64,000 nt of DNA. It comes from an uncultured bacterium. Its GTDB lineage: Bacteria; Cyanobacteriota; Vampirovibrionia; Gastranaerophilales; Gastranaerophilaceae. Below the pieces are notes generated by a model, which did no database searches, was not told the DNA's origin, and saw only the letters and a program-made list of their open reading frames with translations. The number at the start of each line of letters is the position of its first letter. Positions within the stretch are counted from its first letter, which is position 1. The stretch lies in contig CADCKD010000002.1 of assembly GCA_902801985.1 (NCBI GenBank), positions 62,001 to 126,000 of the forward strand, given 5' to 3'. A program made the translations under genes and the position numbers. Below, piece after piece: positions 6,824 through 26,067 of this stretch.

Positions 6824-7489
6824 TTATTGATCAAACAATGCGAAAACTTCATCTATTTTAGCTTTAATTTCGCTTTCTTCAGGTATTAATGCTATTCTAC
6901 GCCATTTTTCACTTACTTCAATAGGAATATTATAGCGTGTAGGATTCATTAGCCTGTTTTTGATTTCTGATAAAATATCGAAGTGATATTTTTTAGTAAT
7001 AGTTTTACTCCCATTTAGAACTTTTGAAACATAATTTTCATCGGTTAACAAGTTCAAATCTATCAAAAGTTTTCTTGCTTTGTTTACCGAAATTTTAGCT
7101 TCATCTTTATCCGTAACAAGATGATAGCATTCAGCAATATGTGTAAAAGAAATTACATGTGCAATATGATAATCTAACGAATTTATTGTAAAATTGGCTT
7201 TTTCATTAGCTCTTGCAACTTTGAAAGAAGAATTGTTTTCATCAACACTTTGTTTTCTAAATTCATTTATCAGTTCTGTTATACCGTTAGTTAATTTGTC
7301 GATTTTTTCAGAATTTCTTTTTAGTTCTTCTCCGACTTGTGTATTCAATTTTATTGCAACTTTATTTGCCAACAAATCATAGTCAACTTTTTGATCACTA
7401 TCTTTGTACAACAAATTATCAAGTTGTTCAGGTGTTAAAGTTGATTCTTTTTGGGAACTTACTAAACGTAATGCTCTTTCTTCTTCCAT
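6824..7489 (-). CDS. Third gene of the mqsRA operon, unknown function
   Basis: A 221-residue hydrophilic, mostly helical protein of no family I recognise. It has Lys/Glu-rich stretches at about 55-90 (possible coiled coil) and an Ala/Lys-rich stretch near 105-145. Its ribosome site AGGGAGG lies inside the last codons of mqsA, and its ATG begins 2 nt after the mqsA stop, so it is translationally coupled to the antitoxin. The position is that of the third gene in tripartite toxin-antitoxin systems, but the sequence does not look like a SecB-type chaperone. Its role in toxin control is inference from position only. Confidence 0.65.
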   Translation of the reverse strand: MEEERALRLVSSQKESTLTPEQLDNLLYKDSDQKVDYDLLANKVAIKLNTQVGEELKRNSEKIDKLTNGITELINEFRKQSVDENNSSFKVARANEKANFTINSLDYHIAHVISFTHIAECYHLVTDKDEAKISVNKARKLLIDLNLLTDENYVSKVLNGSKTITKKYHFDILSEIKNRLMNPTRYNIPIEVSEKWRRIALIPEESEIKAKIDEVFALFDQ

Positions 7490-7490
7490 A

Positions 7491-8126
7491 CTAAACAGCC
7501 TCCCTAAGTGCTAATTGAGAATTTCTTTCTACAACTTTTGTTTCCAATAAACTTTCAATAACTTCTCTGACATAAGAAATGAAATCTCTGCTAAGATTTT
7601 TGATATTTACATCAGGGTAAAATTTTGAAATCAATTCTAAAATAGATATGTTTTCCAAATAAAAACTATGTTCATTTATGATATTGCTAAATTCTTTAAC
7701 TTCTACATTGTTTAACATTTTCAAGAAAAAGCAATAATCATCATTCATATTACGCAAAAGTTTATCTATTGTTTTTGATTGATTAGATTTATATGTTTCC
7801 CATTTTGCAACATTCTTAGGTCCAATTTTCAATAACAATTCTAATTGTAATTGAGTTAGATTGTACTTCTTTCTGATAGTCTTAATTTCTTTGGCTGTCA
7901 AAAGATTTTCACTTTTTCTCTCTTTTTCAAGAGCTTTTTCAAGTTGAATTTCATAATTATCCAAATCATCAGGATTATAGAAAATTTCATTACAATAATC
8001 ACATTTTGAATAGGATAAATTTTCAACAAGAATATCTTTACAACCATTAGAAGTTTTGTACTTTGCCTGTAAAGTTCCGTTTTCTATTCTTTTTAGTTCA
8101 TGATTACATTCTGGACATTTTTTCAT
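7491..8126 (-). CDS. mqsA: MqsA-family antitoxin, extended
   Basis: A 211-residue antitoxin. The N-terminal zinc finger has CPEC (Cys4, Cys7) and CDYC (Cys42, Cys45). The central helix-turn-helix of about residues 77-130 (TAKEIKTIRKKYNLTQ then GPKNVAKWE) is the MqsA/XRE-type DNA-binding domain. E. coli MqsA is about 131 residues; here roughly 80 more follow, of unknown function. It lies 3 bp downstream of the toxin, with an AAAGGAAATAAATT ribosome site. It should neutralise MqsR and repress the operon, probably through the palindrome at 8451-8465. Confidence 0.85.
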   Translation of the reverse strand: MKKCPECNHELKRIENGTLQAKYKTSNGCKDILVENLSYSKCDYCNEIFYNPDDLDNYEIQLEKALEKERKSENLLTAKEIKTIRKKYNLTQLQLELLLKIGPKNVAKWETYKSNQSKTIDKLLRNMNDDYCFFLKMLNNVEVKEFSNIINEHSFYLENISILELISKFYPDVNIKNLSRDFISYVREVIESLLETKVVERNSQLALREAV

Positions 8127-8129
8127 AAT

Positions 8130-8441
8130 TTATTTCCTTTTGAATTGTATAACAACACTTTCATCTGAAACTATTTGAAGTTTAACATAAGCTATATCTT
8201 TACCTATCGGAACATGATATACATCTTGCCATAACTTATTATCATATTCAGATGTCATTGATTTGTAAAAATACGAGTTTTCAATATTAAGTACATAAGA
8301 AATTATATCTTTATGTTTTAAATCAAAATCACACATAGCATTTTCAAGAGCAATTTTGCGAATTTGATATTTTCGTTGTCTTATTAACTCTTTGATAAGG
8401 TTTAGGTTATAGTGTGGAGTCTTTTTCTCATTGTACTTCAT
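8130..8441 (-). CDS. mqsR: MqsR-family toxin (mRNA interferase)
   Basis: A 103-residue protein matching MqsR across its length: KKTPHYNL at the N-terminus, the FYKSMTSEYD block, WQDVYHVP, YVKLQI and a final VIQFKRK. MqsR-type toxins are ribosome-independent RNases of the RelE fold that cut mRNA (mainly at GCU in E. coli). Family alignment fixes the start at 8441 (MKYNEKKTPH). An upstream in-frame extension to 8489 would run through the promoter. With that start the -10 box is exactly 6 nt before ATG, so the mRNA is probably leaderless. Confidence 0.88.
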   Translation of the reverse strand: MKYNEKKTPHYNLNLIKELIRQRKYQIRKIALENAMCDFDLKHKDIISYVLNIENSYFYKSMTSEYDNKLWQDVYHVPIGKDIAYVKLQIVSDESVVIQFKRK

Positions 8442-8447
8442 ATCTAT

Positions 8448-8476
8448 ATTGTAGCATAATGCTACTTTTTTGTCAA
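8448..8476 (-). promoter_or_regulatory. mqsR promoter with embedded palindromic operator
   Basis: Minus-strand TTGACA (8471-8476), a 17-nt spacer and TACAAT (8448-8453). A perfect 7-bp palindrome GTAGCATAATGCTAC (8451-8465) covers half the -10 box and most of the spacer. This is the expected position for antitoxin autorepression; the sequence differs from the E. coli MqsA box. Confidence 0.7.
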
Positions 8477-8538
8477 GATACATGAACAATACCCATAAAG
8501 TTATTGCATTTCGCTAATGAAACGTGTAACATATAAGA

Positions 8539-9428: not shown

Positions 9429-9564
9429 TAAAACCCTTCCGACCAAATGTCCTGTTAAAAGGTATCCAAACTGGAGTTTTCGTCTTTGGGGTTTATTTGG
9501 GACATTTGAATTGTAATTAATTTGCCTGTGTTAGCCGCCACCTTTAGGTGTTAGCGATTTTATA

Positions 9565-9608
9565 CGAATTGACTCAAATGTAACGACGAATTGACTCAAA
9601 TGTAACGA
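9565..9608. repeat. Perfect 22-bp tandem duplication
   Basis: Two identical adjacent copies, 9565-9586 and 9587-9608, each beginning CGAATTGACTCAAATG and ending TAACGA. Length and position downstream of the subtilase gene fit paired transposase-binding sites at an element end. Confidence 0.75.
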
Positions 9609-9860
9609 AACTGCTCTTTTTGTCCAATTTCTGTCACTCAAAAATCCGGTATAAATCCGAGCAAATCGCTAAAACCTAAACATACTCTATATTATAACGA
9701 TGACGCATTTAGGACAAAAATGTACCGCTTAAAGCGCCTATTTTTTAACTCGGAAGCAAGCCGGAAGCATTTACTACATTTGAATAGCAGTAAAATTAAG
9801 ACTCTAAACACATTACGAAATAGTAAAAATCCGTTCCAAAAACTATCGATTTCAGTCAAG

Positions 9861-12089
9861 TTATTGCTGCGGGCGTAATCTGTTATTAACCCTTAAGGCA
9901 TTTGTTACCCAACCCTTTGTTCTGGATGCAACTACGAAATCGTTATAAACTGGAAGTATCTTCGATGGATCCGAAATTGTAACAATAATTGTTGCATCTT
10001 GAGGCTCATCCAATTCAAATTGACTTCTTGTAAGAACACCTACATTTAGCCTCCAATTAATTGCATTAACACCTTTTGGTATTGAACGTTTGTAAACTTT
10101 TACTGGTGACCATTTGTAACCATGCTCTATAAGTATTTTTTCAAAATTTCCTGCACAATCAGGAGTATCTAGAGGTACTTGCTTTGTGTATTTGCCCACA
10201 GTATCAATTGAACCTAATGAAACATCTACATTTGTTCGACAATATTCAGATGCGTTGTTCTCATCTAATGGTTGATTGTACACCAAAGTAACGTATATAT
10301 CTCCGAAGACCTTTCCATCTGAAGTTATTAAACATTCTGGTATAGGAAAATCTTTTTGGTAAATAAGTCCTGGTTGCAATTTAACATTAAAAATTGATGT
10401 AGCTTGCCAATCTGGTGACAATAACATTTCATTTAAGTCACCAGGAACACCAAATCCAAAATAATTTATGTCACTTTCAGATAATTCTTTTTGTTTTAAA
10501 ACAGCAGAATGTATTAACAAAGCTTTTGCTAAGTTAGGATTGAATTCACCATCAATATTATTTACTAAATTGGCCAGTATTGTACTAACTATAGGAGTTG
10601 AAAAGCTCGTTCCTACTCTTTCTGTTAGGTTTCCAGCTTCGTCAAAAGACACTAATCCAGTTTGTTTACAGTCTAATTTTTTATCACAATTGCCACCATA
10701 ATGTACTACTTCTGGTTTAGGAATAAACATTGGTCCGGGTCCTCTTCTAGAAAACGGAGATGGTTCGTTTGGAGAAACAACAGAACTAATTATTTGTTTA
10801 TGTGCTAAAGAACCAACTGTTATTGCACGAACAGAATCTGCAGGAGTTGTAATTCTATCTGTATTATTGGATATATTACTAGGCCACTGCCTTAATGGTG
10901 ATTCACAATAATTACCTGCGGCAATTACAAAAATAACATTAAATCTTTCTTGTAATTCATCCAAAGCCATTCCAAAATCTGAGAAAGAATAATTATCACA
11001 AATTGCATCTGTGCCTAATGATAAGTTCCAAATCTTTATTTCTGGATGTTTCTCAAGTTCAATTTCTAATATAGCAAGTAATTCATCCTCTCTTAAGCTA
11101 TCATCTAAAACAGGTATATCAAAAATACGTGCTTGCACATTAGGAAATATATCGTCATTATTTAAATTGCGAGCGTTTGTTATTAGTCCCGCAATAAAAG
11201 TACCATGCGAATAATCTTGTAGTGCGGGTTTTGCAATATAATTACTTTTCCCTACAATCCATGGCTTCAATATTTCATTTGTTGGCGAAATCCCAGAATC
11301 GACTAAACCAACAATGGGCAATTTTTCGTTTGGTTCATTTAATGCAAGGTTATTACTTGCTACTTTTACTGAATGTTGTTTAATGGGACAAAAATTCATA
11401 AAATTACTTATGCTTTTTAATCCTATAAAATCAGATGCTTCTTCAAATATCTCTTTTGTCTTAAAATTAACAGAATAAATATTTAATTTTTTGGTATATT
11501 TTAGTTTTTTAAAATCAACATCATTTTGCAATCCTAGCTTATTTAAAATTTCGACAAACTTCAACTCATTATTATAATTTAATACATCATTATTGTGATC
11601 AAATAATTTTACTTTTAATACTTGATTATAATTTTTTAGTTCACGTATATCTTTTGAAATAATATCATCCGGTGTATATGGTGCTATTTCTTTAATGGCA
11701 GAAATATTTGCAATATTCTTTTGTTTCTGGCTATTCTTTATCTTTGTTTCGAGTTTGCTTATTGATGAACTATTTACACTTACAAATAATTCACCTAAGG
11801 TTCCTGTTCCTACAATTTTACAATCGGCATCTTTTATGATTTCAGTTGGGCGGTGGCTTTTTGCAAAAGCCTGTTCTCTTAAGTATATCTTTACTACACC
11901 ACTTGTATTTGGATATTTGTTAAATGCTTTTTCAAAATAATTAACAGCATTTGTAGTATATCCAACTAATTCTGTTCTATGTTTATCAAAATTGGCAAAA
12001 TCAAATACAGTATTATCTCCACCACGATTTTGTTTTGCGTGAATATCATTTGTATCATACGCTACGACTAAAAAATTATTCTTATTCAT
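9861..12089 (-). CDS. ietS: Subtilisin-like serine protease, IetS-type defence component
   Basis: A 742-residue cytoplasmic S8 peptidase with no signal peptide. The full triad is present: Asp264 (GLVDSGIS), His295 (YSHGTFIAG) and Ser495 (GTSFSTP), with oxyanion Asn393 (IAAGN). An extra domain of about 250 residues precedes the catalytic domain and about 200 residues follow it. It overlaps the upstream AAA-ATPase gene by 8 bp, and its ribosome site AAGGAGGAAAG is inside the end of that gene, so the two are coupled. The AAA-ATPase plus S8 protease pair is the IetAS architecture reported as anti-phage. The trigger and the protein cleaved here are unknown. Confidence 0.82.
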   Translation of the reverse strand: MNKNNFLVVAYDTNDIHAKQNRGGDNTVFDFANFDKHRTELVGYTTNAVNYFEKAFNKYPNTSGVVKIYLREQAFAKSHRPTEIIKDADCKIVGTGTLGELFVSVNSSSISKLETKIKNSQKQKNIANISAIKEIAPYTPDDIISKDIRELKNYNQVLKVKLFDHNNDVLNYNNELKFVEILNKLGLQNDVDFKKLKYTKKLNIYSVNFKTKEIFEEASDFIGLKSISNFMNFCPIKQHSVKVASNNLALNEPNEKLPIVGLVDSGISPTNEILKPWIVGKSNYIAKPALQDYSHGTFIAGLITNARNLNNDDIFPNVQARIFDIPVLDDSLREDELLAILEIELEKHPEIKIWNLSLGTDAICDNYSFSDFGMALDELQERFNVIFVIAAGNYCESPLRQWPSNISNNTDRITTPADSVRAITVGSLAHKQIISSVVSPNEPSPFSRRGPGPMFIPKPEVVHYGGNCDKKLDCKQTGLVSFDEAGNLTERVGTSFSTPIVSTILANLVNNIDGEFNPNLAKALLIHSAVLKQKELSESDINYFGFGVPGDLNEMLLSPDWQATSIFNVKLQPGLIYQKDFPIPECLITSDGKVFGDIYVTLVYNQPLDENNASEYCRTNVDVSLGSIDTVGKYTKQVPLDTPDCAGNFEKILIEHGYKWSPVKVYKRSIPKGVNAINWRLNVGVLTRSQFELDEPQDATIIVTISDPSKILPVYNDFVVASRTKGWVTNALRVNNRLRPQQ

Positions 12090-13200
12090 TCTTTCCTCCT
12101 TGATTTATGATTTTGGAAATATATCCTGTAGACACCCCAAATATTTTTGACAAATCTCTGTAGGTATATAATTTGTCGTAATGCTGTTTTAAATATTTTA
12201 TTTTATCTTCTATTGGATTTTCGATTATATCTTGCAAATGAATTTTAGATAATTCATTTAAAAGCATTGTTTTATTAAGTATTTTTTTATCTTGAAGAAC
12301 CATTTGGCGATTTATCTCATTACATATTTCTTTAATTTCTGCACCTGATAAGCTCGTACAACTATTTGCGTATAGTTGCAACATTTTATTGTCAATGTCA
12401 AAATTTATAAAACTTTTAATCATTTTTGAAACAATTAATTGATTTGGTTTAATTATTTCAATTTTATATGTAAATCGTCGCCATATAGCAGGGTCCAATA
12501 AATGTTGATGGTTTGTAGCTGCCAATAAAATTGTCTGCTTGTCTAACATATCTATATTTTGCAGCAAGCTAACAACAATACGTTTTAACTCTCCTAATTC
12601 ATTTTGATCGTCTCTTAATTTTGCAATCGCATCAAATTCATCTAAAAATAAAATACACGGTCTTGAATTCGCATAATTAAACAATTCTCTCAAATTTTTA
12701 GATGTACTACCTAGATATGAAGAAATCAGAGAATCTAATCGGGCAGTAACCAGAGGTAGCTCTAGTTCAGAAGCAATGTATTTAGCAAGTTCTGATTTTC
12801 CACAGCCGGGAAGTCCGTATAATAAAAGCGATGGAATAAATTCTACACCTTTTTCCAATAATAAATCATTCGATTTTATATATTTTATAAAATTTTGAAC
12901 TTTTTCCATGATAAATTCGTCAAAAAATATATCTACTTCTCCTTTTTGAAAAAATTCTTTTTCGGCGAGTGAACTCTTAGATTCACTATCAACTGGTAAA
13001 ATATCTCTGATATTTGCACCATTTGGTAATAATTTTAAACTCTTAGAGTTTAATATAGCCTTTTTTAATTTAGAAGATGCAGATTTATCGCCTTCAGCTT
13101 CCAGTTTTTCAGATAAAAGTTCTGTATAATTAACAACTTTTTCTATATCGGCATTTAATGCACCATTTACTATTTTTAAAATTTCAGGTAAATATTCCAT
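12082..13200 (-). CDS. ietA: AAA+ ATPase, IetA-type defence component
   Basis: A 372-residue AAA+ protein: Walker A GLPGCGKS (129-136), Walker B FLDEFD (185-190), sensor-1 region LLAATNHQ and an arginine pair in PAIWRRF. The N-terminal 120 residues are helical. The last 30 residues form a helix-turn-helix-like segment (YRDLSKIFGVSTGYISKII), so it may also bind DNA or regulate its own operon. As the partner of the adjoining subtilase it probably unfolds, recruits or gates the protease. AAAGGGATTGTC precedes the ATG. Six phased TGAACA sites lie immediately upstream (13223-13330). Confidence 0.82.
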   Translation of the reverse strand: MEYLPEILKIVNGALNADIEKVVNYTELLSEKLEAEGDKSASSKLKKAILNSKSLKLLPNGANIRDILPVDSESKSSLAEKEFFQKGEVDIFFDEFIMEKVQNFIKYIKSNDLLLEKGVEFIPSLLLYGLPGCGKSELAKYIASELELPLVTARLDSLISSYLGSTSKNLRELFNYANSRPCILFLDEFDAIAKLRDDQNELGELKRIVVSLLQNIDMLDKQTILLAATNHQHLLDPAIWRRFTYKIEIIKPNQLIVSKMIKSFINFDIDNKMLQLYANSCTSLSGAEIKEICNEINRQMVLQDKKILNKTMLLNELSKIHLQDIIENPIEDKIKYLKQHYDKLYTYRDLSKIFGVSTGYISKIINQGGKNE

Positions 13201-13222
13201 GACAATCCCTTTTTATATTTCA

Positions 13223-13330
13223 TGAACATAATAACATATTTCGTGAACAAAATCAAGATTTTGTGAACAAATTATGTTATTTGGTGAACAAAATGCTAGA
13301 TGTATGAACAGAATAATAAATCATTGAACA
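13223..13330. repeat. Array of six TGAACA sites at 20-21 bp spacing
   Basis: TGAACA starts at 13223, 13244, 13264, 13285, 13305 and 13325: spacings 21, 20, 21, 20 and 20, about two helical turns. The sequence after each core is A/T-rich (commonly AAAAT). The array fills the gap between the transposition operon and ietA and runs into the last codons of the 13296-14078 gene. It could be an iterated operator, a cooperative binding array, or a transposon end with TnsB-like sites. Confidence 0.85.
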
Positions 13331-14078
13331 TGTAATTGGATAACCTAAGTTCTTTTTTTACTTTATAAAAATCTTTTCTGATTTTGCGTTTTAAGAATTT
13401 CTTTTGTTGTTCATCTCCTGTTAAAATCGTGTTCAAAGGCTGTTTTAATGTGATTAAATTTTGAACAATTGAAAGCATGTATGGATATTTCTTTTTCAGG
13501 ATTTTAAAAAGCTGTGCCAGTTGTTCCGGAGTTAATATTTGAATTTGTCTTTTAGGAATATCGGCTATTCTTTTTACTTCAAAAATACAGGTTTTATCAA
13601 TATAACCTTCATTTTGAAAATATTTTATTATTTGATTCAAAAGTGCAAGAATATTCTTAATTCTGCGTTCAGATACTTTATTATTTTGTAAGTATTTTCT
13701 AAAATTCAGAATATCCTGAATAGTTATATCTTTTAATCGAAATTTCATAAAATACGGAATAATTTTTGAATAAACAAAGGTTTTATATACTTGGAAAGAC
13801 ATCTCTGTCAGAGTATTCTGCTTAATTTCTAAAAATATTTCGCAAGCTTCAACAACTGTAATATCCAAATTTTTACTTGGAATATTTTTATCAATAATTT
13901 TAAATTTATCTTCTGCTTTTATTGTTTCCACATATTCAAACTTATCTCCACAGGACTTTATATTCTCCGATTCTTGCAAAAATTTTCTGGCGGTATCTGC
14001 ATCAATATCGCAGAACATAATAATATCTTCAATAGAAAATGTTTTTAATCTTTTTGCAACTTTCAATATCTTATCCAC
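13296..14078 (-). CDS. Recombinase-like protein lacking a catalytic domain (transposition operon gene 3)
   Basis: A 260-residue protein. The N-terminus resembles a winged helix (SIEDIIMFCDIDADTARKFL). Residues of about 77-170 match the SAM-like core-binding domain of tyrosine recombinases (VEACEIFLEIKQ to NQIIKYFQNEGYI), followed by a start of the catalytic fold (LTPEQLAQLF). The box I Arg is not evident, the box II HxxR is replaced by FNDLLF, and the protein ends there, so the tyrosine end is missing. It starts at GTG 14078 after AGGAGG, overlapping tniB by 8 bp. It occupies the slot of TniQ/TnsD-like target selectors, but a degenerate leftover is equally possible. The stop falls inside the TGAACA array. 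Confidence 0.6.
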   Translation of the reverse strand: MDKILKVAKRLKTFSIEDIIMFCDIDADTARKFLQESENIKSCGDKFEYVETIKAEDKFKIIDKNIPSKNLDITVVEACEIFLEIKQNTLTEMSFQVYKTFVYSKIIPYFMKFRLKDITIQDILNFRKYLQNNKVSERRIKNILALLNQIIKYFQNEGYIDKTCIFEVKRIADIPKRQIQILTPEQLAQLFKILKKKYPYMLSIVQNLITLKQPLNTILTGDEQQKKFLKRKIRKDFYKVKKELRLSNYMFNDLLFCSYI

Positions 14079-14757
14079 CCAATACCTCCTGAGCTATATT
14101 TTCATCAATTTCTGTTAATCCGTTTGCTTGCGCCACTTTTTCAAATGTATCAATTGTATTTACAATTTGCCTGAAACTTTTGGCTTTGTTGTGTATTAAA
14201 TGTACTGCCCCTTTTGTAATTTCAACTTCCGAGATTTCCTCAGTAATTTGTTTGATATCTGAATATTCAAATTCAGTAAAATTATATATTTCTGAAATCC
14301 GGTCAAACAGGTGCGTATGCTTTTTGAGTTTGTGTTTTGCAAGCTGCATTCCGACCAAAATTATTGTTACACCCGTTTCATCGTGTAAATCTCTAAGTGT
14401 TTCTATTGTTCTAAAATCTTTTAACAGATAATCAATTTCATCAACTATAATCATCTGCGAATTAGTTTTTAGAGCATTAACGCATTGCCTGAAAATATCT
14501 GCAGTATAAAATCTTGGTATTTCATCAAGCTCTTTGGCGATTTCTTCCAATAACCACTTTGGGCTCATAGAGTTTATTACCCTAATATAAATTGCATCAT
14601 ATTGTATTGAAAGATAAAGTGCAGTCTTTGTTTTGCCTAATCCTGCATTTCCATATACAAGACCAATTTTTGATATATTATCAGGCTTATTATTCAGGTT
14701 ATGAATAAGATTAATAAATCCTTTGACATTCTTAGTTAAGACAAATTTAGGTTTCAT
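14071..14757 (-). CDS. tniB: TniB/MuB-like AAA+ transposition ATPase
   Basis: A 228-residue AAA+ protein with Walker A YGNAGLGKTKTAL (about 34-46) and Walker B MIIVDEIDYLL (about 97-107), followed by LRDLHDETGVTIILVGM, typical of MuB/TniB/IstB-like transposition ATPases. Such proteins bind target DNA, recruit the DDE transposase and mediate target immunity. Its ATG overlaps the transposase stop by 4 bp, and AAGGAATAAACT provides the ribosome site, so it is coupled to tniA. The symbol is by analogy with Tn5053. Confidence 0.85.
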   Translation of the reverse strand: MKPKFVLTKNVKGFINLIHNLNNKPDNISKIGLVYGNAGLGKTKTALYLSIQYDAIYIRVINSMSPKWLLEEIAKELDEIPRFYTADIFRQCVNALKTNSQMIIVDEIDYLLKDFRTIETLRDLHDETGVTIILVGMQLAKHKLKKHTHLFDRISEIYNFTEFEYSDIKQITEEISEVEITKGAVHLIHNKAKSFRQIVNTIDTFEKVAQANGLTEIDENIAQEVLGG

Positions 14758-16808
14758 AGTTTATTCCTTTCTTGGTTGCCGGCGATAAACGGGCACGCTG
14801 ACGCTTCGGCCCTCTGCCGGCAATCCGCAAAATCGGTTTCATATTGCTTATACTCCTTTGATTCTTTATACGCTGTAAGCCAAATTCTATCATCATTACA
14901 AGTGCAGCCATGTTCCATAAGGTATTCATATCTTTCTCTGCTTGTTTTGAATAATGGTTTTACCGCCGGATTATATTTTTGAGACTTTTCTTTTTTAATT
15001 TCTATTTTAGGAACAATAGGCGGTGGTAAAGGTGCATCTTCAGTTTTATCCATTTCACACTCTAAAATTTCCAACTCTTCAATATTCAAAAACTCTTTAC
15101 AATCCTTTATTGTCTTATTTTTAAGCTGTTTTTGTTTTTGGATTTTCTGTTTGTAATCTTCAATATCCTTAACTTCGCCTGTGTAATAAGCAAGCGGATG
15201 TGTTAGTGTAATTCTGTCTGCTCTGCATAAAAACTTACCTGATATCGTATAAACATTAATGTAAGATAAATCAAACAGGCTGTATTTTATTAGCACTTTC
15301 TGCCTCAACCCATAAAGTGCATCGTTATAATAATCAGATTTTAAGAACCTTATACCCTGACTTGTAATTGTTTTAATCTCTTGCGCCAGCATTAAATCGT
15401 CCAACTCTCTTTGGTTTATTTCTTTCTTTTCAACACTGTCAAGCATTTCTTTAATACTTTTTGTCTTATCATTAGGGCAGGGTAGAGAATTTTTATACTC
15501 AAGCCAACTGTTTATCATCTGAATTGTCTGCTGAATAGTGGGCACAAATTCTTGGTGTATTTCACTATGGAACTTTTCATTTCTCCTTAACCTTGCCGGT
15601 TTATTTTCTATATTTGTTCCGATATAACTCGGCAACAGTTTTTCAAAACTTTCCTGCATCTCCAGAAAAAATCGTTCAATAACTTTAGCTCTGGCATTAT
15701 ACGGATTTGCAAAAACAGTTGTTATACCGAGTTTTTCATATACACCTTTAAATCCGTATTGTTCAAATCCATCCTTATATTTACCCCTAAAATATTTACC
15801 CCTGAATGCTCTGCCGTTATCAAGATAAACAAACTTCGGAATTTTACCCAGATTTAATATTGCATTTCTTAGAGCTGACGCAATATTTTGCGTATTTTCT
15901 TCTATCATTATTTCATACCCGACAAGTACAGTCGATTTCCAATCCAAAAATCCGATTAATGTTGCACGACAGGGTTTCCCTGTAAACGGATTTATTACCT
16001 GAAAGTTTAATCTTTTCCCATCTGCTACCAAAATTTCTCCGACTTCGATTTTTGAAATATCCCTTTTGACATGCGGAATGACATCTTCTCTCAGGGCTTT
16101 TTCGCCGTCACGCAAAAGAGTCCATTTGTCAAAATAATTTGCTTTATACCAATTGGCGAATTTTCTGAATGTCGGCGGTGCAGGGATATACTCTGCCCTC
16201 TGAGTTTTTAGAACATATTGGGTTAAAGATATTGCTTTTCCGATACTGAATTTATTCGGGTGCAATAAAAGTTTCAAAAATATTTGTTTTTCGTGTTCTG
16301 TAAGACAGGTTCTTGAATAATCTTCGTAATGGTAATTCGGAATTAAAAGTTCATAGTTACTACTATTTCCTAAAATCCGTTTCCACCTTTGCAAAGTTCC
16401 TATTGAAACATTCCCGAGTTTTGCATAAATATCAGGATACAAAACTTGTGCGTTATATGCACCTAAAAAATCATTATCAAACTGCGTTTTATTCTGCTGA
16501 TTTTTGCGTTCGTTTTTCCAAAGATTTAATAAATTCGATCTTGCAAGTGCAATAACTTTTGCTTTATCGGGTTTGTGAAAATCAGTTGGTACGGGAAGCT
16601 GTTTTTCAGCATAACTCGGAACAATTTTGGAATAATACTTTTCCTGAAGTTCCGGTTCAATGCTTGATAACAGAATCTCAAAACTTTTTCCGCCTTTGAC
16701 AGTGATTTCTCTGGTAATGTATTTACCCTTTGACAGCCTGATAGCTCGTGTACTTACACCTTTGAGTTCTGCTAATTCTTTGATTGTAATGTATTTTTCA
16801 TCTGTCAT
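14754..16808 (-). CDS. tniA: TniA/MuA-like DDE transposase
   Basis: A 684-residue transposase. The N-terminus has a MuA/TniA-type helix-turn-helix (IKELAELKGVSTRAIRLSKG), a second DNA-binding region around 125-145, and then the RNase H-fold integrase core: Asp263 (LVADGKRL), Asp330 (YLDNGRAF) and Glu378 (KVIERFF). A beta-barrel-like Mu C-terminal domain follows at about 480-550 and then a charged tail. It catalyses DNA strand transfer of the element. CAGGAGCCAAGATA precedes the ATG. It is the first gene of a tightly overlapping operon reading toward ietAS and is divergent from the HTH gene at 17065. All catalytic residues are intact. Confidence 0.9.
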   Translation of the reverse strand: MTDEKYITIKELAELKGVSTRAIRLSKGKYITREITVKGGKSFEILLSSIEPELQEKYYSKIVPSYAEKQLPVPTDFHKPDKAKVIALARSNLLNLWKNERKNQQNKTQFDNDFLGAYNAQVLYPDIYAKLGNVSIGTLQRWKRILGNSSNYELLIPNYHYEDYSRTCLTEHEKQIFLKLLLHPNKFSIGKAISLTQYVLKTQRAEYIPAPPTFRKFANWYKANYFDKWTLLRDGEKALREDVIPHVKRDISKIEVGEILVADGKRLNFQVINPFTGKPCRATLIGFLDWKSTVLVGYEIMIEENTQNIASALRNAILNLGKIPKFVYLDNGRAFRGKYFRGKYKDGFEQYGFKGVYEKLGITTVFANPYNARAKVIERFFLEMQESFEKLLPSYIGTNIENKPARLRRNEKFHSEIHQEFVPTIQQTIQMINSWLEYKNSLPCPNDKTKSIKEMLDSVEKKEINQRELDDLMLAQEIKTITSQGIRFLKSDYYNDALYGLRQKVLIKYSLFDLSYINVYTISGKFLCRADRITLTHPLAYYTGEVKDIEDYKQKIQKQKQLKNKTIKDCKEFLNIEELEILECEMDKTEDAPLPPPIVPKIEIKKEKSQKYNPAVKPLFKTSRERYEYLMEHGCTCNDDRIWLTAYKESKEYKQYETDFADCRQRAEASACPFIAGNQERNKL

Positions 16809-16839
16809 TATCTTGGCTCCTGTGGGTATTTCGGCACCA

Positions 16840-17040
16840 TTCGCCTAAGTCGGCTCATTGCCTCAATTATCCTACGTCGCTATCGTAGTGCTTACGCACC
16901 GGCTACGCATTCCATTAATGACTCTGAACTCGGAAAATTGGAACTGTTTCCGACTTAATTTGTATCATTCGGACACATAGTCGGAAACAAATAAGGACTT
17001 GATGTTTCTTTAAAACGAGTTAAAATGTGTGTACCCAAAT
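16840..17040. promoter_or_regulatory. tniA/HTH divergent control region
   Basis: Between tniA and the HTH gene. It contains small hairpins (CTACG/CGTAG near 16871-16887, GTGC/GCAC near 16889-16900) and AACTCGG at 16927. A 9-bp inverted repeat GTTTCCGAC (16946-16954) / GTCGGAAAC (16980-16988) has a 25-bp spacer. TTCCGAC and AACTCGG also occur near 9.3-9.5 kb and 26.0 kb. It is a likely operator or enhancer of the element. Confidence 0.5.
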
Positions 17041-17064
17041 CATCTACCCTAAAGGAGTTACCCC

Positions 17065-17340
17065 ATGAAAAAAGAATTAAGAAAACAGGTTGAATTACTT
17101 GAGCAAAAAATGTCAAAGAGTCCGAATAATAAGAAAAACGGTGGAAGTCATTTTCTGTACCGCAGGGAAAGAATGATACGTTTTAAAATGTTGCAGAAAA
17201 ATATACCGCAAAAAATGCTTGCCAAAAGATTAAATCTAACCGAAAGCTACATATCAAAACTCATAACCGGCAAACGCTATAACAAAGATTTTGAAAGTTA
17301 TATTATACATATTTTAGACATAAATTATTGTTGTATTTGA
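17065..17340 (+). CDS. Ner/XRE-like HTH regulator
   Basis: A 91-residue basic protein with a C-terminal helix-turn-helix (KNIPQKMLAKRLNLTESYIS, recognition helix SYISKLITG). The N-terminal 35 residues are Lys/Asn-rich. TAAAGGAGTTACCCC gives a very strong ribosome site. It is divergent from the transposase across the TTCCGAC inverted repeat, the arrangement of Ner/C-type regulators in Mu-like elements, so it probably controls transposase expression. The last residues (INYCCI) are unusually Cys-rich. Confidence 0.75.
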   Translation: MKKELRKQVELLEQKMSKSPNNKKNGGSHFLYRRERMIRFKMLQKNIPQKMLAKRLNLTESYISKLITGKRYNKDFESYIIHILDINYCCI

Positions 17341-17374
17341 TTAATGTAAAGACATTCAATTGTCATGCCTGCTA

Positions 17375-17701
17375 TTATTTGCATTTAATTTTATATTCAC
17401 TTCCCCATTTATCCATAGCATCAAGTATGGGTTTTAGACTTCTGCCTGTTTCGGTTAGAGTATATTCCACTCTTGGCGGAACTTCGGCATAGACTTTTCT
17501 TGTAACAAGTCCGTCCTCCTCCATCCCTCTGAGGTTTGTTGTCAAAACCTTTTGCGACACTTTTCCGATTGATTTTCTAAGTTCTCCGAATCTTTTTGTG
17601 CCGGTGATTAAATCCCTAATTATCAAAACTTTCCACCTGTCTGAAATCATGCTTAACGTAACTTCAACAGGACATGGCGGTAATTCTTTTTTGTTCTTCA
17701 T
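17375..17701 (-). CDS. HxlR-family transcriptional regulator
   Basis: A 108-residue winged-helix protein of the HxlR/DUF24 family: the CPVEVTLSMISDRWKVLIIR start with the family's N-terminal Cys, then RFGELRKSIGKVSQKVLTTNL and a wing around RVEYTLTETG. HxlR regulators often sense electrophiles or redox stress through the N-terminal Cys and control neighbouring oxidoreductases. It is divergent from the NAD(P)-binding gene at 17830, its most likely target. Confidence 0.9.
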   Translation of the reverse strand: MKNKKELPPCPVEVTLSMISDRWKVLIIRDLITGTKRFGELRKSIGKVSQKVLTTNLRGMEEDGLVTRKVYAEVPPRVEYTLTETGRSLKPILDAMDKWGSEYKIKCK

Positions 17702-17829
17702 AATCTAAAACCTTTCATTTATTAAATAGTTTCTAATAGTTACTATATTACTTTTTTGTGCTTACTTTACAATATATACCGACTAATTTATTATAAAACC
17801 ATAAAAATGAAAAAGCAAAGGAGAGTTTT

Positions 17830-18462
17830 ATGGTAAAAATCGCTATTGTATGCGCTAACGGCAGGGCAGGAAAATTAATCACAAACGAAGCTGTTTCAAG
17901 AGGTTTGGATGTTACAGCAATTGTAAGAGGCGAAAATCAAACGAATGCTAAAAATGCTATTTTAAAAGATTTGTTCGACCTGACAAAAGAAGACTTAAAA
18001 GATTTTGACGTGATAATTGATGCGTTTGGTGCTTGGAGCGAAGATGCGCTGCCTTTACACGTAAAAAGCTCACAATATTTGTGTGATTTGTTGGCAAGAA
18101 CGGATAAAAGATTGTTAATTGTTGGCGGTGCCGGAAGTTTGTATGTTAACCCCGAACATACAATTCAAGTATATCAAACTCCTGATTTCCCTGAAGTTTA
18201 TATTCCGCTTGCAAAAGCTCAAAGCAAAGAACTGGAGGAATTAAGAAAAAGAAATGATGTTAAATGGACATTCTTAAGCCCTGCGGCTGATTTTCAAGCA
18301 GATGGAGAGAGAACGGGGAAATATATCCTAAACGGAGAAGAATTAATACCTAACAGCAAAGGTGAAAGCATAATTTCTTACGCAGATTATGCCGTTGCAA
18401 TGGTCGATATTGCCGTTCAAGATAAATATATTCAACAAAGAATATCTGTAGTAAGAGAATAA
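17830..18462 (+). CDS. NAD(P)-binding atypical SDR protein (NmrA/YwnB-like)
   Basis: A 210-residue single-domain Rossmann protein. It starts VKIAIVCANGRAGKLITNEA, a variant of GxxGxxG in which a Gly is replaced (ANGRAGK). It also has the VIDAFGAW strand-turn, LLIVGGAGSLYV, and a TFLSPAADF block. These are features of NAD(P)H-binding flavin reductase/NmrA-like proteins, paired elsewhere with HxlR regulators. CAAAGGAGAGTTTT precedes the ATG. It is probably an oxidoreductase or redox sensor; the substrate is not predictable. A hairpin at 18477-18510 ends the transcript. Confidence 0.85.
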   Translation: MVKIAIVCANGRAGKLITNEAVSRGLDVTAIVRGENQTNAKNAILKDLFDLTKEDLKDFDVIIDAFGAWSEDALPLHVKSSQYLCDLLARTDKRLLIVGGAGSLYVNPEHTIQVYQTPDFPEVYIPLAKAQSKELEELRKRNDVKWTFLSPAADFQADGERTGKYILNGEELIPNSKGESIISYADYAVAMVDIAVQDKYIQQRISVVRE

Positions 18463-18476
18463 AGAATTTTTATTAA

Positions 18477-18510
18477 AGAGTGCGAAACATAACAGATGTT
18501 TTCGCACTCT
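18477..18510 (+). terminator. Hairpin after the SDR gene
   Basis: Perfect 11-bp arms AGAGTGCGAAA and TTTCGCACTCT, followed by TGTTATAT. It is probably a terminator between the SDR gene and the kinase gene; the U-tract is short. Confidence 0.6.
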
Positions 18511-18539
18511 TGTTATATAATAACCTTGAGAGGTTTATT

Positions 18540-19751
18540 ATGCTGAAGTCGGAAAGTTTTATTAAAATTGCAGGGGTTTGGGTTATTGCCCTGATGTTTA
18601 TCTGGTCAATTTTGATAATAATTTTAAATCATTCCGACTTAATGATTGTATATGGTTTTGGGAACATTTTAAACAGACTTCCTTTTTATTCACCCTCAAA
18701 AATATTGAACGTTGTGTTTGTAAGTTTTTTCTTTATTGTGTATTTGATTTCATTTTTGAAATTAATGCAAAATAAAATTCACGTAAAATCGTACAAAAAC
18801 ATCTGCTGTCTTTTATTAATGGCAATTTCCGGCAGTATTGTCTGTGTTTCTTTGAACTACATCGTAAGTCTGCTTGTTGGCTTTGTTTTAAAGAAAAAAT
18901 ATTCCGTAATTTTAGTTTTGTTAAACATTTTATCTTGTTTAACGGTTGATATTTTAGTTCCCGACGTTAAAAAACTTGAATTCATTGATATTGTAAAAGG
19001 CACTCTGCTTGACCAAATTTTAGCTGATACGGTTTCAACCTGCAGTTTTCATATATTTTTGTTTATTCTTGGGATTGTGTTGGTGCAAGAAATTAAACAG
19101 AGGCTTGAACTTGAAATAACGAACGCTAAATTGAAAGTATTTAAAGAAATTGATGATATTTCAATAAGAAACTCTGAAAGAATTGATATTGCAAGAGAGC
19201 TCCACGACAGCATCGGGCATCATCTCGCTGCAATAAGTACAAATCTTCAGCTTGCAAATGCTCTATGTAAGGATGAAGCAAAAGAACCGATACAAGATGC
19301 TTATGACACATCAAAAGTTTTAATGAATGATATCAGAGGAATAGTTTCTGCCTTAAAACAAGATAAAAGTTTAGATTTATACGAAGCAATAACGAAGATT
19401 ATAAAATCAATAAAATCGCCAAAAATCACTTTTGATATGGATAAATCCCTTGTTATACAAAATCAAAAAATAAAACACGTTTTATTTAGAACTGTTCAGG
19501 AAATTATTACAAACGCAATGAAATACTCGGAAGCCGAAAGCCTTTTTATTTCAATAAAATACGAGAATAATTTTATTATTTTAAACGCTAAAGACGATGG
19601 AGTAGGCTGTGAAAATTTAAAACTCTCAAACGGACTAAGCGGTATGACAGAAAGAATTGAAGAACTTTTTGGATGTGTTGAATTTAGAACCTCAAAAAAT
19701 AACGGCTTTGTTACAAATATAAAAATCCCTTATGGGGGTAACAATGATTAG
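18540..19751 (+). CDS. NarL-type sensor histidine kinase
   Basis: A 403-residue membrane kinase. The first about 190 residues carry roughly six hydrophobic helices. A short coiled coil leads to the HisKA_3 dimerisation box (IARELHDSIGHH, phospho-acceptor His222) and a HATPase domain with EIITNAMKYS and DDGVGC. It should phosphorylate the response regulator whose gene overlaps its 3' end. I chose ATG 18540 after GAGAGGTTTATT; a frame opening at 18480 would run through the terminator hairpin. The location directly before a TolC-RND operon suggests it senses the exported compound or envelope stress. Confidence 0.9.
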   Translation: MLKSESFIKIAGVWVIALMFIWSILIIILNHSDLMIVYGFGNILNRLPFYSPSKILNVVFVSFFFIVYLISFLKLMQNKIHVKSYKNICCLLLMAISGSIVCVSLNYIVSLLVGFVLKKKYSVILVLLNILSCLTVDILVPDVKKLEFIDIVKGTLLDQILADTVSTCSFHIFLFILGIVLVQEIKQRLELEITNAKLKVFKEIDDISIRNSERIDIARELHDSIGHHLAAISTNLQLANALCKDEAKEPIQDAYDTSKVLMNDIRGIVSALKQDKSLDLYEAITKIIKSIKSPKITFDMDKSLVIQNQKIKHVLFRTVQEIITNAMKYSEAESLFISIKYENNFIILNAKDDGVGCENLKLSNGLSGMTERIEELFGCVEFRTSKNNGFVTNIKIPYGGNND

Positions 19752-20385
19752 AATTATTGTTGCAGAGGATCAACATTTAGTCAGGAAAGGAATTGTAGGT
19801 TTGTTGAAGCTAAACAATGATTTTGAGGTAATTGCAGAAGCATCTGATGGGATTGATGCGTATAATAAAATTATTGAACTTAAACCCGATGTTGCGCTTT
19901 TGGATATTAAAATGCCGAAAATGAACGGGATAGATGTTTTGGAAAAATTGAATAATGCAGGTGTCAAAATAAATTCAATACTTTTAACAACGTTTAACGA
20001 CGAGGATTTATACAAAAACGCACTTGTTGCGGGTGCAAATGCTTTTCTTTTAAAGGATGTGTCAATTGAAATTTTATCTGATACTATTTATAAGGCTGCG
20101 AAAGGCGAGCATATAATTAACCCTTTGATAACTCCAAAAACAATAGAAAAAATTCAAGCGGATACAAGGTTCATTTCAATAGATGATATAACAGAGGAGC
20201 TTACAAAAAGAGAAATTGAAGTTTTAAAGCTCATATCAAACGGTTACAGCAACAAAGAAATCGGAGAGTTATTGTCAATTTCAACGGGTGTGGTTAAAAA
20301 TTATACCTCAGCGATTTTTCAAAAATTAAATGTAAGAGATAGAACAAGAGCCGTTTTAAAAGCGATTGAGATGGGGTTGATATAA
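19744..20385 (+). CDS. NarL/FixJ-family response regulator
   Basis: A 213-residue regulator: receiver domain with acidic pair in VAEDQ, phospho-acceptor Asp54 (ALLDIKMP) and the conserved Lys in LLKDVS, then a LuxR-type HTH (LTKREIEVLKLISNGYSNKEIG to VRDRTRAV). It overlaps the kinase gene by 8 bp. The ATG at 19744 is preceded by a GGGGGTAAC ribosome site; a further ATG at 19732 is part of that site. It probably activates the efflux operon that begins 53 bp downstream. Confidence 0.92.
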   Translation: MIRIIVAEDQHLVRKGIVGLLKLNNDFEVIAEASDGIDAYNKIIELKPDVALLDIKMPKMNGIDVLEKLNNAGVKINSILLTTFNDEDLYKNALVAGANAFLLKDVSIEILSDTIYKAAKGEHIINPLITPKTIEKIQADTRFISIDDITEELTKREIEVLKLISNGYSNKEIGELLSISTGVVKNYTSAIFQKLNVRDRTRAVLKAIEMGLI

Positions 20386-20437
20386 TATATGACTTTTGTC
20401 ACGTCAATATAAAAAACATTTATATTAGCATAAATTT

Positions 20438-21718
20438 ATGAAAAAATTTGTGCTTTTTTTATTATTAATAATTCAATTAGGTGCAAGTGCAGAAGAAATA
20501 AAACCAATTTCTTTAAATGAGGCAATCCAAATAGCTTTAGAAAATAATTTGGACTACAAAAGCGGCAAGTTAAACATTGATATTGCAAAAAACAATATAA
20601 AATCTGCAAACAGGCTTCAAAATCCGGGGATTTATACTTTTTGGAACTTTGGTAAATCCGGTCATGGCAACCCTCAGCAAATAGGGATTACACAAACTAT
20701 AGAAATCGCAAAACGAAGTCCTCGAAAAAAACTTGCGCAGGCAAAGTTGAAATTGACTGATAACGATATTTTGTATATGGCGTTTAGACTCAAAACCGAT
20801 GTAAAAATAGCTTATATTGAAACTCTTGGAGCAAAAACAAAATTTCATACCTTGAAAGAACAAGAACAACTTTTACAAACCCTTCTTGACATCGCAAAAA
20901 AGCGAGTTGAAGCAGGAGCGAGTGCTGAAATTGATGTTTTGCAAGCAAAAATCGCCTTAAATCAAATGACAACGACAATTAATAATGCCAAAACCGAGAT
21001 AGATGTAGCAAATATAAATTTTAATAAAGTACTAAATGTTCCAAACGAACAGTATGAAATAGAAGGAAATTTTTTAACTGACAGTAATATTACAAGTGAT
21101 TTCAAAACCCCGCCTTTAAACATAAATTTGCCTGATACTCAAACTGTTGTAAATAATTATCTTGAGCGAAGATTTGATATACAAATAGTAAAAAACAATA
21201 TTGAGGTTGCCGAGAAAAATTTGATTAATGTAGTAAGACAAAGAGTTCCTGATATTGAACTTGAAGGCGGTTATGGGTTTCAATCTAAAGGTATGTCAGA
21301 TGACGGAACATTCCAAAACGGTGGATATATTGGGGCGAATTTAGTAAATATTCCTGTTTTGTATTCATTTAGTCCTGAAATAAAAAATGCGAAATTGGAA
21401 TTGGAGCAAGCTCAATTAAATTATGACTCTACAAAAAACAAAGCAGCTAAAGATATTCAGGCAAAGTACGAAAAGTTTTTAACATCAAGAAAAAATCTAA
21501 ATTACTATAATGAAACCTTGTTAAAAGAGTCAGCAGAATTTATAAGGTTATCAAAAAGAAGCTATGAAGTTGGGAAATCAAACCTCACAACTTTAATTGT
21601 TATGGAGCAAAACTATAGGGATATTATTTTAGGGTATTCGGACACGTTGGCTCAATATTATACAGATTGGCTGGAGTTTTTACTATCAATAAATCAAGAG
21701 GAAATGGATGAACTTTAA
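20438..21718 (+). CDS. TolC/CusC-family outer-membrane efflux protein
   Basis: A 426-residue precursor with signal peptide MKKFVLFLLLIIQLGASA. Two OEP repeats show the typical start (PISLNEAIQIALENN) and long helical coiled-coil stretches (about 100-195 and 320-400), including VEAGASAEIDVLQAKIALNQ and its counterpart KRSYEVGKSNLTTLI. It forms the outer-membrane channel for the RND pump encoded next, whose gene overlaps it by 11 bp. There is no lipobox. The ribosome site is weak. Confidence 0.92.
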   Translation: MKKFVLFLLLIIQLGASAEEIKPISLNEAIQIALENNLDYKSGKLNIDIAKNNIKSANRLQNPGIYTFWNFGKSGHGNPQQIGITQTIEIAKRSPRKKLAQAKLKLTDNDILYMAFRLKTDVKIAYIETLGAKTKFHTLKEQEQLLQTLLDIAKKRVEAGASAEIDVLQAKIALNQMTTTINNAKTEIDVANINFNKVLNVPNEQYEIEGNFLTDSNITSDFKTPPLNINLPDTQTVVNNYLERRFDIQIVKNNIEVAEKNLINVVRQRVPDIELEGGYGFQSKGMSDDGTFQNGGYIGANLVNIPVLYSFSPEIKNAKLELEQAQLNYDSTKNKAAKDIQAKYEKFLTSRKNLNYYNETLLKESAEFIRLSKRSYEVGKSNLTTLIVMEQNYRDIILGYSDTLAQYYTDWLEFLLSINQEEMDEL

Positions 21719-24700
21719 TAAATTAATAAAATATGTTTTAAAAAACAAAAAAATTGTACTAATTTTGTCTGTAATAATGATGCTTACAGGATTGTTTTGC
21801 CTAAAAACTCTTGATATTGAAGCCTATCCGGATTTTACTTCCCCAATGGTTCAAGTCATAACAGAAATGTCCGGAAAAAGTGCCGAAGATGTTGAAAGAC
21901 TTGCTACAATTCCTCTTGAAAAAGAATTAAACGGGATTCCCCATGAAAAAATGCTTTATTCAAATTCATTATTCGGACTTTCGGTTATAAAGGTTGTGTT
22001 TGATGACAACATGCCCTCAAACCTAATCAGACAGCAAGTATTAGAGCGGATTTCACAGGCTGATTTACCGGAGGATATCAAGCCGCAATTAGGGCCTGAT
22101 GCTTCACCTATCGGTGAGATTTTCAGATATACTCTAGAATCCGATTTTTATAACCCTATGACATTGAAAGCTCTTGAAGATTGGGATATGGAGCGAGCTT
22201 TTAAACAGGTAAAAGGTGTTATTAATGTAAATAGTTTTGGCGGGCCTGTTAAAACTTATAAAGTCATTTTAAACCACGAAAAAATAAGGTTTTATAATCT
22301 GGATGTAAGAGAGGTTTATGATGCTATAAAGCAATCAAATTCAACAGCCGGCGGGCATTATATTGATAATAATAATCAGGCTTTTATTGTAAGAGGAATC
22401 GGGTTATTTACAGATATTGAAAGTCTTAAGAATACCGTAATATCTTCTCAAAAAGGAACGCCTATCAGGATAAAAGATGTCGGAGAAGTCGTAATTGAGC
22501 CTGCGGTAAGACTCGGACAAGTCGGTAAAAACTTTAATGATGATACGGTTGAAGGTATTGTTTTAATGAGAAAGAGCGAAAATCCCTCAAAAACAATCAA
22601 AAATTTAAAGCGCTCACTCCCTGATATTATTTCTGAACTGCCAAAAGGAGTAAAACTTGTTCCAATTTATGATAGAAGCACGTTGATTAATAACACGATG
22701 AAAACAATTTCGCACAATGTAATTTTAGGTATATTTTTTGTGGTCGTGATTTTGTACGCTTTTATCAAAAATTTAAGGCTGACGCTTATCACTTCACTGA
22801 CCATTCCCCTTGCTTTATCTTTTGCGTTTATTTTATTTAAAATATTTTCTATCCCTGCAAACCTTTTGAGTATGGGGGCAGTAGATTTTGGGATTTTAGT
22901 CGATGCAGCGGTTATTTTAGCTGAAAATATTTATACAAAAATATCCGGTTATAAAAATAATCTAACCGAATGCAGAAAAAAAGTTTTAGTATATAAAGCA
23001 GTTAAAGAAATGTGGCAGCCGATATTCTTTTCAACATTAATAATTCTTTGCTGTTTTTTGCCGATTTTTGCATTTAATGGTGTTGCAGGAAAACTCTTTC
23101 ACCCTTTAGCTTTTACAATGGGTTTTTCTTTAATAGGTGCCGTTATAACCTCGTTATTTATAATTCCTGTTTTAGTATCAAAATTTTTGCATTCCGTAAA
23201 AATAAAAGAACAGCCTGAAATTTTCGGCAAGTTTTATGAGAAACTTCTTGATAAAACTTTGAAATCACCTAAAAAATTTTTTATCATACTTGGTGGAATT
23301 TTAATTTCTTCATTTATCCTTTTGCCATTTATTGGGTCTGAATTTTTACCGAATTTAGATGAAGGTAATATTTGGCTCAGAGTAACGGTAATCCCGAGGA
23401 GTACAACAATAAACCATAGCGTTGAAGTAGCAAGACAAATAAGGGAAACATTACTAAAATACCCTGAAGTTACAAATGTTATTTCACATATTGGTTCAGC
23501 CGATGATGGCGAAGACCCGAATTTATTATCAAATATAGAAAATATGGTGGATTTAAAACTTTCTAAAAAGTGGCGGTTTAAATTTCATAAAAATAAACAA
23601 AAACTGATTAATGATATGGAAAGAAGTTTAAATGAAATTCCCGGAATTACTACATATTTTACCCAATATATTCAGGATAATGTGGAAGAAGCCGTTTCCG
23701 GCTCAAAAGGTCAAGTTGTCTTGAAAATTTATGGTCACGATTTATATAATCTGCAAAAACTTCAAGATGAAGCGGTTGAGTTGTTAGGAAAAGTGCGAGG
23801 GATTGTAGATATTTCTTATGACCAAATAATCGGGCAGCCGCAGTATCAAATAAAAGCGGACAGGACAAAAGCCGCAAGGTATGGTTTAAAAAGCGACGAT
23901 ATCCAAAAAGTTATTGAAATTGCAATCGGCGGTAAAAATGCTACTCAAATAATTAAAAACGAAAAACGATTTAATGTGTTTTTACGTCTTGAACAGGAGG
24001 ACAGAAACAGTTTAGAAAAGCTCGAAAACATCATCGTCAAAACACCTGACGGAATTTCTGTTCCTTTGTCTAATGTAGCAAATATTACGAACGACAACGG
24101 CGCAATGATTATTACAAGGAGTGAAAATCAAAGAGTAGCAATAATTAGATTTAACATAAGAAATCGAGATTTAGGTTCGACCGTAAATGAAGCGGAAAAG
24201 CTATTAAAAAAAGAACTTAAACTGCCTGATAACTACAGAATAAAATGGGCAGGGCAATCAGAGAGTCAAAAAAGTGCCAATATAAGACTTGGAATAATTT
24301 TACCTCTTACAATTCTTTTAATTTCGGCAATTCTTTTTATCCATTACAAGAAAAAACGCTATGTGGGGATTGCTTTATGCACAATTTTGCCTGTATTATC
24401 AGGGGCTATTTTTATTCTGTTTTTAACTAAGACATATTTTTCAATCTCCGCCGGAGTTGGTCTAATTGCGGCAATAGGAGTATCAATACAAAACAGCGTA
24501 ATAATTCTATCTTCGCTTATAAAAACAAATACCTTAGGTGATGAGGAATTAAAAAGTCTTGCGTGTAAAAGATTACGTCCTGTCCTATCAGCTTCACTTG
24601 TTGCAATACTCGGGCTAATGCCGGCAGCACTTTCAAACGGTATTGGTGCACAAAGCCAGAAACCTTTTGCAATTACTATAATTGGCGGACTTACTTTTGG

Positions 24701-24770
24701 CACCGTTATTACAATATTTTTAGTACCTCTACTGTATAAACTGACAAAGGAGAAAAAATGCGAAATTTAA
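21708..24770 (+). CDS. Heavy-metal-type RND efflux pump (CusA/CzcA family)
   Basis: A 1020-residue RND transporter with an N-terminal helix, two large periplasmic loops and the usual 12-helix layout. Early block EAYPDFTSPMVQV and the TM4 motif GAVDFGILVDAAVILAEN (proton-relay Asp residues) are typical of the metal-exporting HME-RND group rather than the drug-exporting HAE group. The metal (Cu, Ag, Zn, Co or Ni) cannot be fixed from sequence. It overlaps the TolC gene upstream and the adaptor gene downstream. The pump is intact. Length is slightly below the roughly 1040 of E. coli CusA. Confidence 0.92.
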   Translation: MNFNKLIKYVLKNKKIVLILSVIMMLTGLFCLKTLDIEAYPDFTSPMVQVITEMSGKSAEDVERLATIPLEKELNGIPHEKMLYSNSLFGLSVIKVVFDDNMPSNLIRQQVLERISQADLPEDIKPQLGPDASPIGEIFRYTLESDFYNPMTLKALEDWDMERAFKQVKGVINVNSFGGPVKTYKVILNHEKIRFYNLDVREVYDAIKQSNSTAGGHYIDNNNQAFIVRGIGLFTDIESLKNTVISSQKGTPIRIKDVGEVVIEPAVRLGQVGKNFNDDTVEGIVLMRKSENPSKTIKNLKRSLPDIISELPKGVKLVPIYDRSTLINNTMKTISHNVILGIFFVVVILYAFIKNLRLTLITSLTIPLALSFAFILFKIFSIPANLLSMGAVDFGILVDAAVILAENIYTKISGYKNNLTECRKKVLVYKAVKEMWQPIFFSTLIILCCFLPIFAFNGVAGKLFHPLAFTMGFSLIGAVITSLFIIPVLVSKFLHSVKIKEQPEIFGKFYEKLLDKTLKSPKKFFIILGGILISSFILLPFIGSEFLPNLDEGNIWLRVTVIPRSTTINHSVEVARQIRETLLKYPEVTNVISHIGSADDGEDPNLLSNIENMVDLKLSKKWRFKFHKNKQKLINDMERSLNEIPGITTYFTQYIQDNVEEAVSGSKGQVVLKIYGHDLYNLQKLQDEAVELLGKVRGIVDISYDQIIGQPQYQIKADRTKAARYGLKSDDIQKVIEIAIGGKNATQIIKNEKRFNVFLRLEQEDRNSLEKLENIIVKTPDGISVPLSNVANITNDNGAMIITRSENQRVAIIRFNIRNRDLGSTVNEAEKLLKKELKLPDNYRIKWAGQSESQKSANIRLGIILPLTILLISAILFIHYKKKRYVGIALCTILPVLSGAIFILFLTKTYFSISAGVGLIAAIGVSIQNSVIILSSLIKTNTLGDEELKSLACKRLRPVLSASLVAILGLMPAALSNGIGAQSQKPFAITIIGGLTFGTVITIFLVPLLYKLTKEKKCEI

Positions 24771-25933: not shown

Positions 25934-25993
25934 AAATCTGAACACGATTAAAACACTCATTAAACGGCATTTATTGTTAAAATTTTTTGAAAA

Positions 25994-26067
25994 CTTCCGA
26001 CTAAATATGTCAAACTCGGTATACTTTATCTCAAAATCCCTCATACACAGTATGGAGTTTTCGTCTT
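25994..26067. repeat. Composite motif region matching the 9.4-kb region
   Basis: Contains CTTCCGACTAAATATGTC (25994-26011), AACTCGG (26013-26019), GGTATAC and TGGAGTTTTCGTCTT (26053-26067). The same order of CTTCCGAC-AAAT-GTC, GGTAT and an identical 15-mer TGGAGTTTTCGTCTT occurs at 9436-9486, in the same orientation. It could be an element end, an att-like direct repeat or a dispersed genomic repeat. Confidence 0.5.

Follow-up and report, generated by a model that had tools for sequence, protein, structure and literature searches.

A phased array of direct repeats upstream of ietAS as a candidate operator for the antitoxin IetA

The ietAS pair and the tni element that carries it

The window (the whole stretch of 64,000 nucleotides analysed here) encodes on its minus strand the two proteins of an IetAS system: ietA (12082–13200), for an AAA+ ATPase with a C-terminal helix-turn-helix (HTH) whose characterised relatives act as the antitoxin partner, and ietS (9861–12089), for a subtilisin-like serine protease that is the toxin in characterised relatives. 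The second gene lies directly downstream of the first, the reading frames sharing 8 bp, and both products fit the PADLOC family models over nearly their full length (IetA versus PDLC02196, E 2.5e-132, residues 1–368 of 372; IetS versus PDLC02197, E 3.3e-250). The same two genes occur in the same order in the IetAS/IteAS systems pTiC58 ietA-ietS, SGI1 sgiAT and mycoplasma A132/T133. Such relatives, with an AAA-ATPase antitoxin and a protease toxin, have been shown experimentally to be toxin–antitoxin pairs: toxicity and its neutralisation are on record, and sgiAT and the mycoplasma pair are functional modules (PMC5006074, PMC8562856).

Structure searches with an IetA query that included the core returned AAA+ core matches only (Vps4, FtsH, PAN and Rpt; Z about 22); the core is a Vps4/FtsH/PAN-type AAA+ domain. 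A C-terminal HTH is confidently predicted at residues 330–367 (12100–12213, minus strand), where AlphaFold2 places three helices (330–340, 347–354 and 358–367) with pLDDT in blocks of 95–97 for residues 331–360 and 84 for 361–370, against 91 overall. Since the Pfam HTH models matched this tail only below threshold, its assignment relies on the structure model together with comparison. We propose it as the domain that would bind the array described below.

IetAS is cargo of a tni element of 16.6 kb (9487–26052, limits drawn from homology), and the close matches of the genome assembly it comes from are gut Gastranaerophilales. The tni operon (13296–16808, minus strand) consists of tniA (14754–16808), whose product carries Mu-transpos_C, tniB (14071–14757) and a third, integrase-like gene (13296–14078). 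The latter encodes a phage-integrase SAM-like N-terminal domain only, without a catalytic domain, and is kept by the majority of the closer sister elements. Also kept in most of these, at a variable distance from tniA, is a small HTH gene (17065–17340) divergent from tniA. The left end of the element starts with TGGGGTTTATTTGGGACAT at 9487, which is common to sister elements with different flanks, and the right end at 26052 is the limit of homology among copies of the window element. An exact 15-bp direct repeat, TGGAGTTTTCGTCTT, adjoins both ends (9472–9486 and 26053–26067); Mu/Tn7-type transposition usually yields a duplication of 5 bp, and a 15-bp target-site duplication sought in the sister elements was found in none. 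Directly to the left of the element lie an MqsRA-like toxin–antitoxin pair and one further gene (6824–8489).

The array and the putative ietA promoter

Between the tni operon and ietA, positions 13223–13330 contain the phased array noted in a sequence-only reading of the window, and our count agrees with it: six TGAACA sites on the plus strand, at 13223, 13244, 13264, 13285, 13305 and 13325, in steps of 21, 20, 21, 20 and 20 bp. Read in the ietA sense (minus strand) these are six direct copies of TGTTCA (13223–13228, 13244–13249, 13264–13269, 13285–13290, 13305–13310 and 13325–13330), which we propose as an IetA operator. As that reading also held, conservation of the spacers is loose, with a consensus of about ATTtTGTTCAcnAA in the ietA sense, and the final codons of the integrase-like gene, whose stop codon is at 13296–13298, hold the copies at 13305 and 13325. 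TGAACA was the sole 6-mer in the 64 kb to form a chain of at least four copies at 19–22 bp spacing, and no comparable hexamer chain arose in 30 windows simulated with a first-order Markov model fitted to the window. Because the word itself is about as frequent as expected (50 occurrences in the window versus 49 expected), the signal of the array is its phasing. No inverted counterpart of the array was found in the window, and a nucleotide search of the 2.1 Mb assembly of its own genome with the array gave the self-match only.

A sigma-70-like match, TTGATT-17-TATTAT (13228–13256, minus strand), sits within the array and overlaps the two ietA-proximal TGTTCA copies. It is a putative ietA promoter by consensus match only and, taken by itself, is not above chance (1 found versus 2.2 expected).

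Phased repeats upstream of other ietA genes

We drew IetA homologues from genomes, plasmids, phages and 80 IMG/VR contigs, pTiC58 ietA and SGI1 sgiA being left out; a viral-contig search with the window IetA as single query retrieved no relative, an alignment query being needed for that. The homologues fall into genes with the HTH tail, of which 58 non-redundant ones (<65% identity) were kept, and tail-less genes, a small control (n = 14) drawn largely from the same phylum as the window. For each, the best three-copy repeat in the 150 bp upstream was scored at lags of 8 to 45 bp against dinucleotide-preserving shuffles. Tailed genes gave a mean z of 2.9 at lag 20 (p ≤ 0.02 in 32/58) and of 1.8 at lag 21 (p ≤ 0.02 in 19/58), with further peaks at 41 and, smaller, at 10, the remaining lags being flat. 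None of the 14 tail-less genes had a 20–21 bp repeat signal, and 136 other genes of the same loci stayed at chance level at lag 20 (4/136). A z of at least 3 was reached by 30/58 tailed versus 0/14 tail-less genes (Fisher p = 2e-4). At p ≤ 0.01, 40/58 tailed and 0/14 tail-less genes were positive at any helical-phase lag, versus 4/58 tailed genes at anti-phase lags, the two lag sets being of unequal size (8 and 12 lags, respectively). As the idea had come from viewing some of the loci, we scored separately 37 IMG/VR loci unseen before the test, and 23 were positive, as were four of the six plasmid loci fetched after it. An IetS-like gene lies directly downstream of 57/58 tailed genes and of 8/14 tail-less ones, so that the contrast between the two classes is not merely one with unrelated ATPases.

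The 20–21 bp spacing is thus present in related ietAS loci, where the sequence-only reading had advised looking for it, with a word that differs from operon to operon. A significant 19–21 bp signal is missing in 25 of the 58 tailed operons (about 43%); some of these have a 41 or 10 bp spacing and others nothing clear. By eye, ~10 bp tandem repeats replace the 20 bp spacing in four tailed operons (L088, L089, phage L151 and L160), at times as two pairs flanking the promoter.

The repeated words include TTACA (five copies, L075), CGTTC (three, L120), GAACRA (three, E. faecium plasmid L154), AGAAAC (three, Hymenobacter L159), a CGCAAC-like word (three, Roseomonas L157) and TGCA, the latter in six copies with every step 20 bp in Bradyrhizobium L243 and in five copies in A. 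vitis L242. Phage L162 has the word of the window, TGTTCA, in three copies at 20 bp. Its IetA is 46% identical to that of the window, the two recognition helices are nearly alike (VSTGYISKIINQ in the window, VSTGKISKILNS in the phage), and the upstream DNA outside TGTTCA is without significant similarity. Further pairings of helix and word, made by inspection, are SSGK with CTTCA, SK(T/S) with CGTTC, and DKST or DPST with TGCA or CGCAAC. Over 30 arrays, HTH and motif similarity were correlated when motifs were compared on the same strand (Mantel r = 0.25, p = 5e-4), also with AAA similarity controlled (partial Mantel r = 0.16, p = 0.0015). With motifs compared on either strand, significance was lost once AAA similarity was controlled, and we therefore consider the link between HTH and word specificity suggestive: the repeat word appears to track the HTH, most strongly in a few close groups. 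Tailed ietAS operons would provide a natural set for matching HTH sequences to probable DNA words, the probable word being directly readable for dozens of operons, whose regulation is immediately testable.

The array as a putative operator of ietAS

We conclude from these comparisons that the array is probably the operator of ietAS, bound by IetA on one face of the DNA and autoregulatory. That it is a binding platform for the IetA HTH, one of the options in the sequence-only reading, is strongly supported by the comparison across operons. Because about 43% of the tailed operons have no clear 19–21 bp array, we grade the parts of this proposal differently: the link between IetA tail and array is well supported and IetA is the likely binder, while we infer IetA binding itself, its cooperativity, repression of ietAS and the trigger. 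In the mechanism that we propose, several IetA subunits would use their tails to occupy the six TGTTCA words cooperatively, all on the same side of the DNA and at intervals of two helical turns; IetA on the array would cover the ietA promoter and repress the operon; and a drop in free IetA, for example upon phage infection or loss of the element, would relieve repression and release IetS. Binding of the antitoxin to its own promoter is a common logic of toxin–antitoxin operons. Such autoregulation would be a plausible form of another role suggested for the array, that of silencing the defence operon, given that its sites overlap the likely ietA promoter; silencing as such we infer. Tight repression would also fit SGI1 sgiAT, for which no killing was seen under the native promoter, an inactivity in E. 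coli for which an operator role of IetA may account and for which the authors proposed a need for positive activation (PMC5006074).

The proposed arrangement resembles antitoxin-autoregulated operons of the AbiEi, MazE and HigA type, which likewise have a DNA-binding domain on the antitoxin and a repeated operator over the promoter. In ietAS these correspond to the predicted HTH of IetA and to operator-like repeats that lie across the putative promoter and recur in homologous operons. In those systems, however, operators are mostly inverted repeats and antitoxins are small, whereas ietAS arrays are three to six direct repeats two helical turns apart and the proposed binder is an AAA+ ATPase. 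Plasmid iterons and centromere-like arrays also consist of several direct repeats that recur about every 20–22 bp on one face of the DNA. The ietAS array shares this one-face, multi-copy geometry and similar spacing, but it has no adjoining replication initiator or Par gene (no neighbour of the array, that is, ietA and the tni operon, matched a replication-initiator family), overlies a defence-operon promoter and varies in its word by operon.

Other explanations concern who, if anyone, occupies the sites. A host regulator, TniA or the 17065 HTH protein might bind them and thereby silence or time the cargo, as the element does encode a divergent HTH protein and TniA is a DNA-binding transposase. 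Yet arrays with matching geometry also stand before ietA on plasmids and phages that lack this element, array presence depends on the IetA tail, and sister elements that have the 17065 HTH gene and TniA and not ietA have no array, so we hold another binder to be improbable. Intrinsic curvature from phased A/T tracts, modulating the promoter without a sequence-specific binder, would agree with AT-rich upstream regions (mean GC 36%) and with a spacing that matches the helical repeat. But the words contain G/C (TGTTCA, CGTTC, TGCA, CGCAAC), differ among operons and tend to follow the HTH, and tail-less IetA genes and other genes of the same loci lack the signal, which makes this account very unlikely.

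Sites of the TnsB/MuA/TniA type marking an element end, as the sequence-only reading had also suggested, are the least credible of these explanations, and we reject them on the element boundaries and on the array-free sister elements. Their appeal lies in the 20–21 bp direct repeats beside tniA and tniB, since sites at Tn7, Tn5053 and Mu ends have a similar spacing. With the ends at 9487 and 26052, however, the array is internal, 3.7 kb away from the nearer boundary, and unrelated plasmids and phages carry ietAS operons with equivalent arrays. Moreover, some 30 sister tni elements whose cargo differs (TniA 77–92% identical) do not have the array, whereas all copies with the window's ietA (L006, L007 and L087) do. 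By this comparison, the array belongs to ietAS and not to the transposon.

A less conventional extension of the proposed IetA operator, which we regard as unlikely though less so than the explanations above, is that IetA assembles on the array as an AAA+ oligomer with one HTH per site, a DNA-tethered antitoxin store or sensor from which IetS would be freed if a phage took over the DNA or if extra array copies arriving with a related element titrated IetA. If true, this would also explain the role of ietAS in plasmid incompatibility as well as stability that is reported for pTiC58 in the title of a paper cited in PMC8562856.

In the literature within reach of our search, which did not extend to the founding pTiC58 paper (PMC2704731), we found no description of the phased array or of an operator-binding function of the HTH tail, nor an account of the control or trigger of IetAS, a widespread defence/toxin–antitoxin system. 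The array in the window apparently belongs to a widespread, undescribed control element of IetAS operons, and with the HTH tail it would imply a further, testable function for IetA, that of a regulator binding its operator.

At the slot occupied by ietAS, sister elements carry a DUF4143 ATPase, a DUF6088 protein, an HTH antitoxin-like protein or, judged by eye, a Fic-like protein. In L010, L013, L019, L024, L011, L014 and L034, other toxin–antitoxin or defence-like cargo comes right after the integrase-like gene. Several of the cargo modules at this slot have short upstream repeats of their own, such as GTCGTGTAAAAAATGTG, TTAGGTCATATTAGGTC and ATGTCGTATAATATAA, and hence repeats appear to come with the cargo. 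In L006 and L087, a deletion took most of IetS together with the recognition helix of IetA and left the array intact; these copies are a natural toxin-loss derivative.
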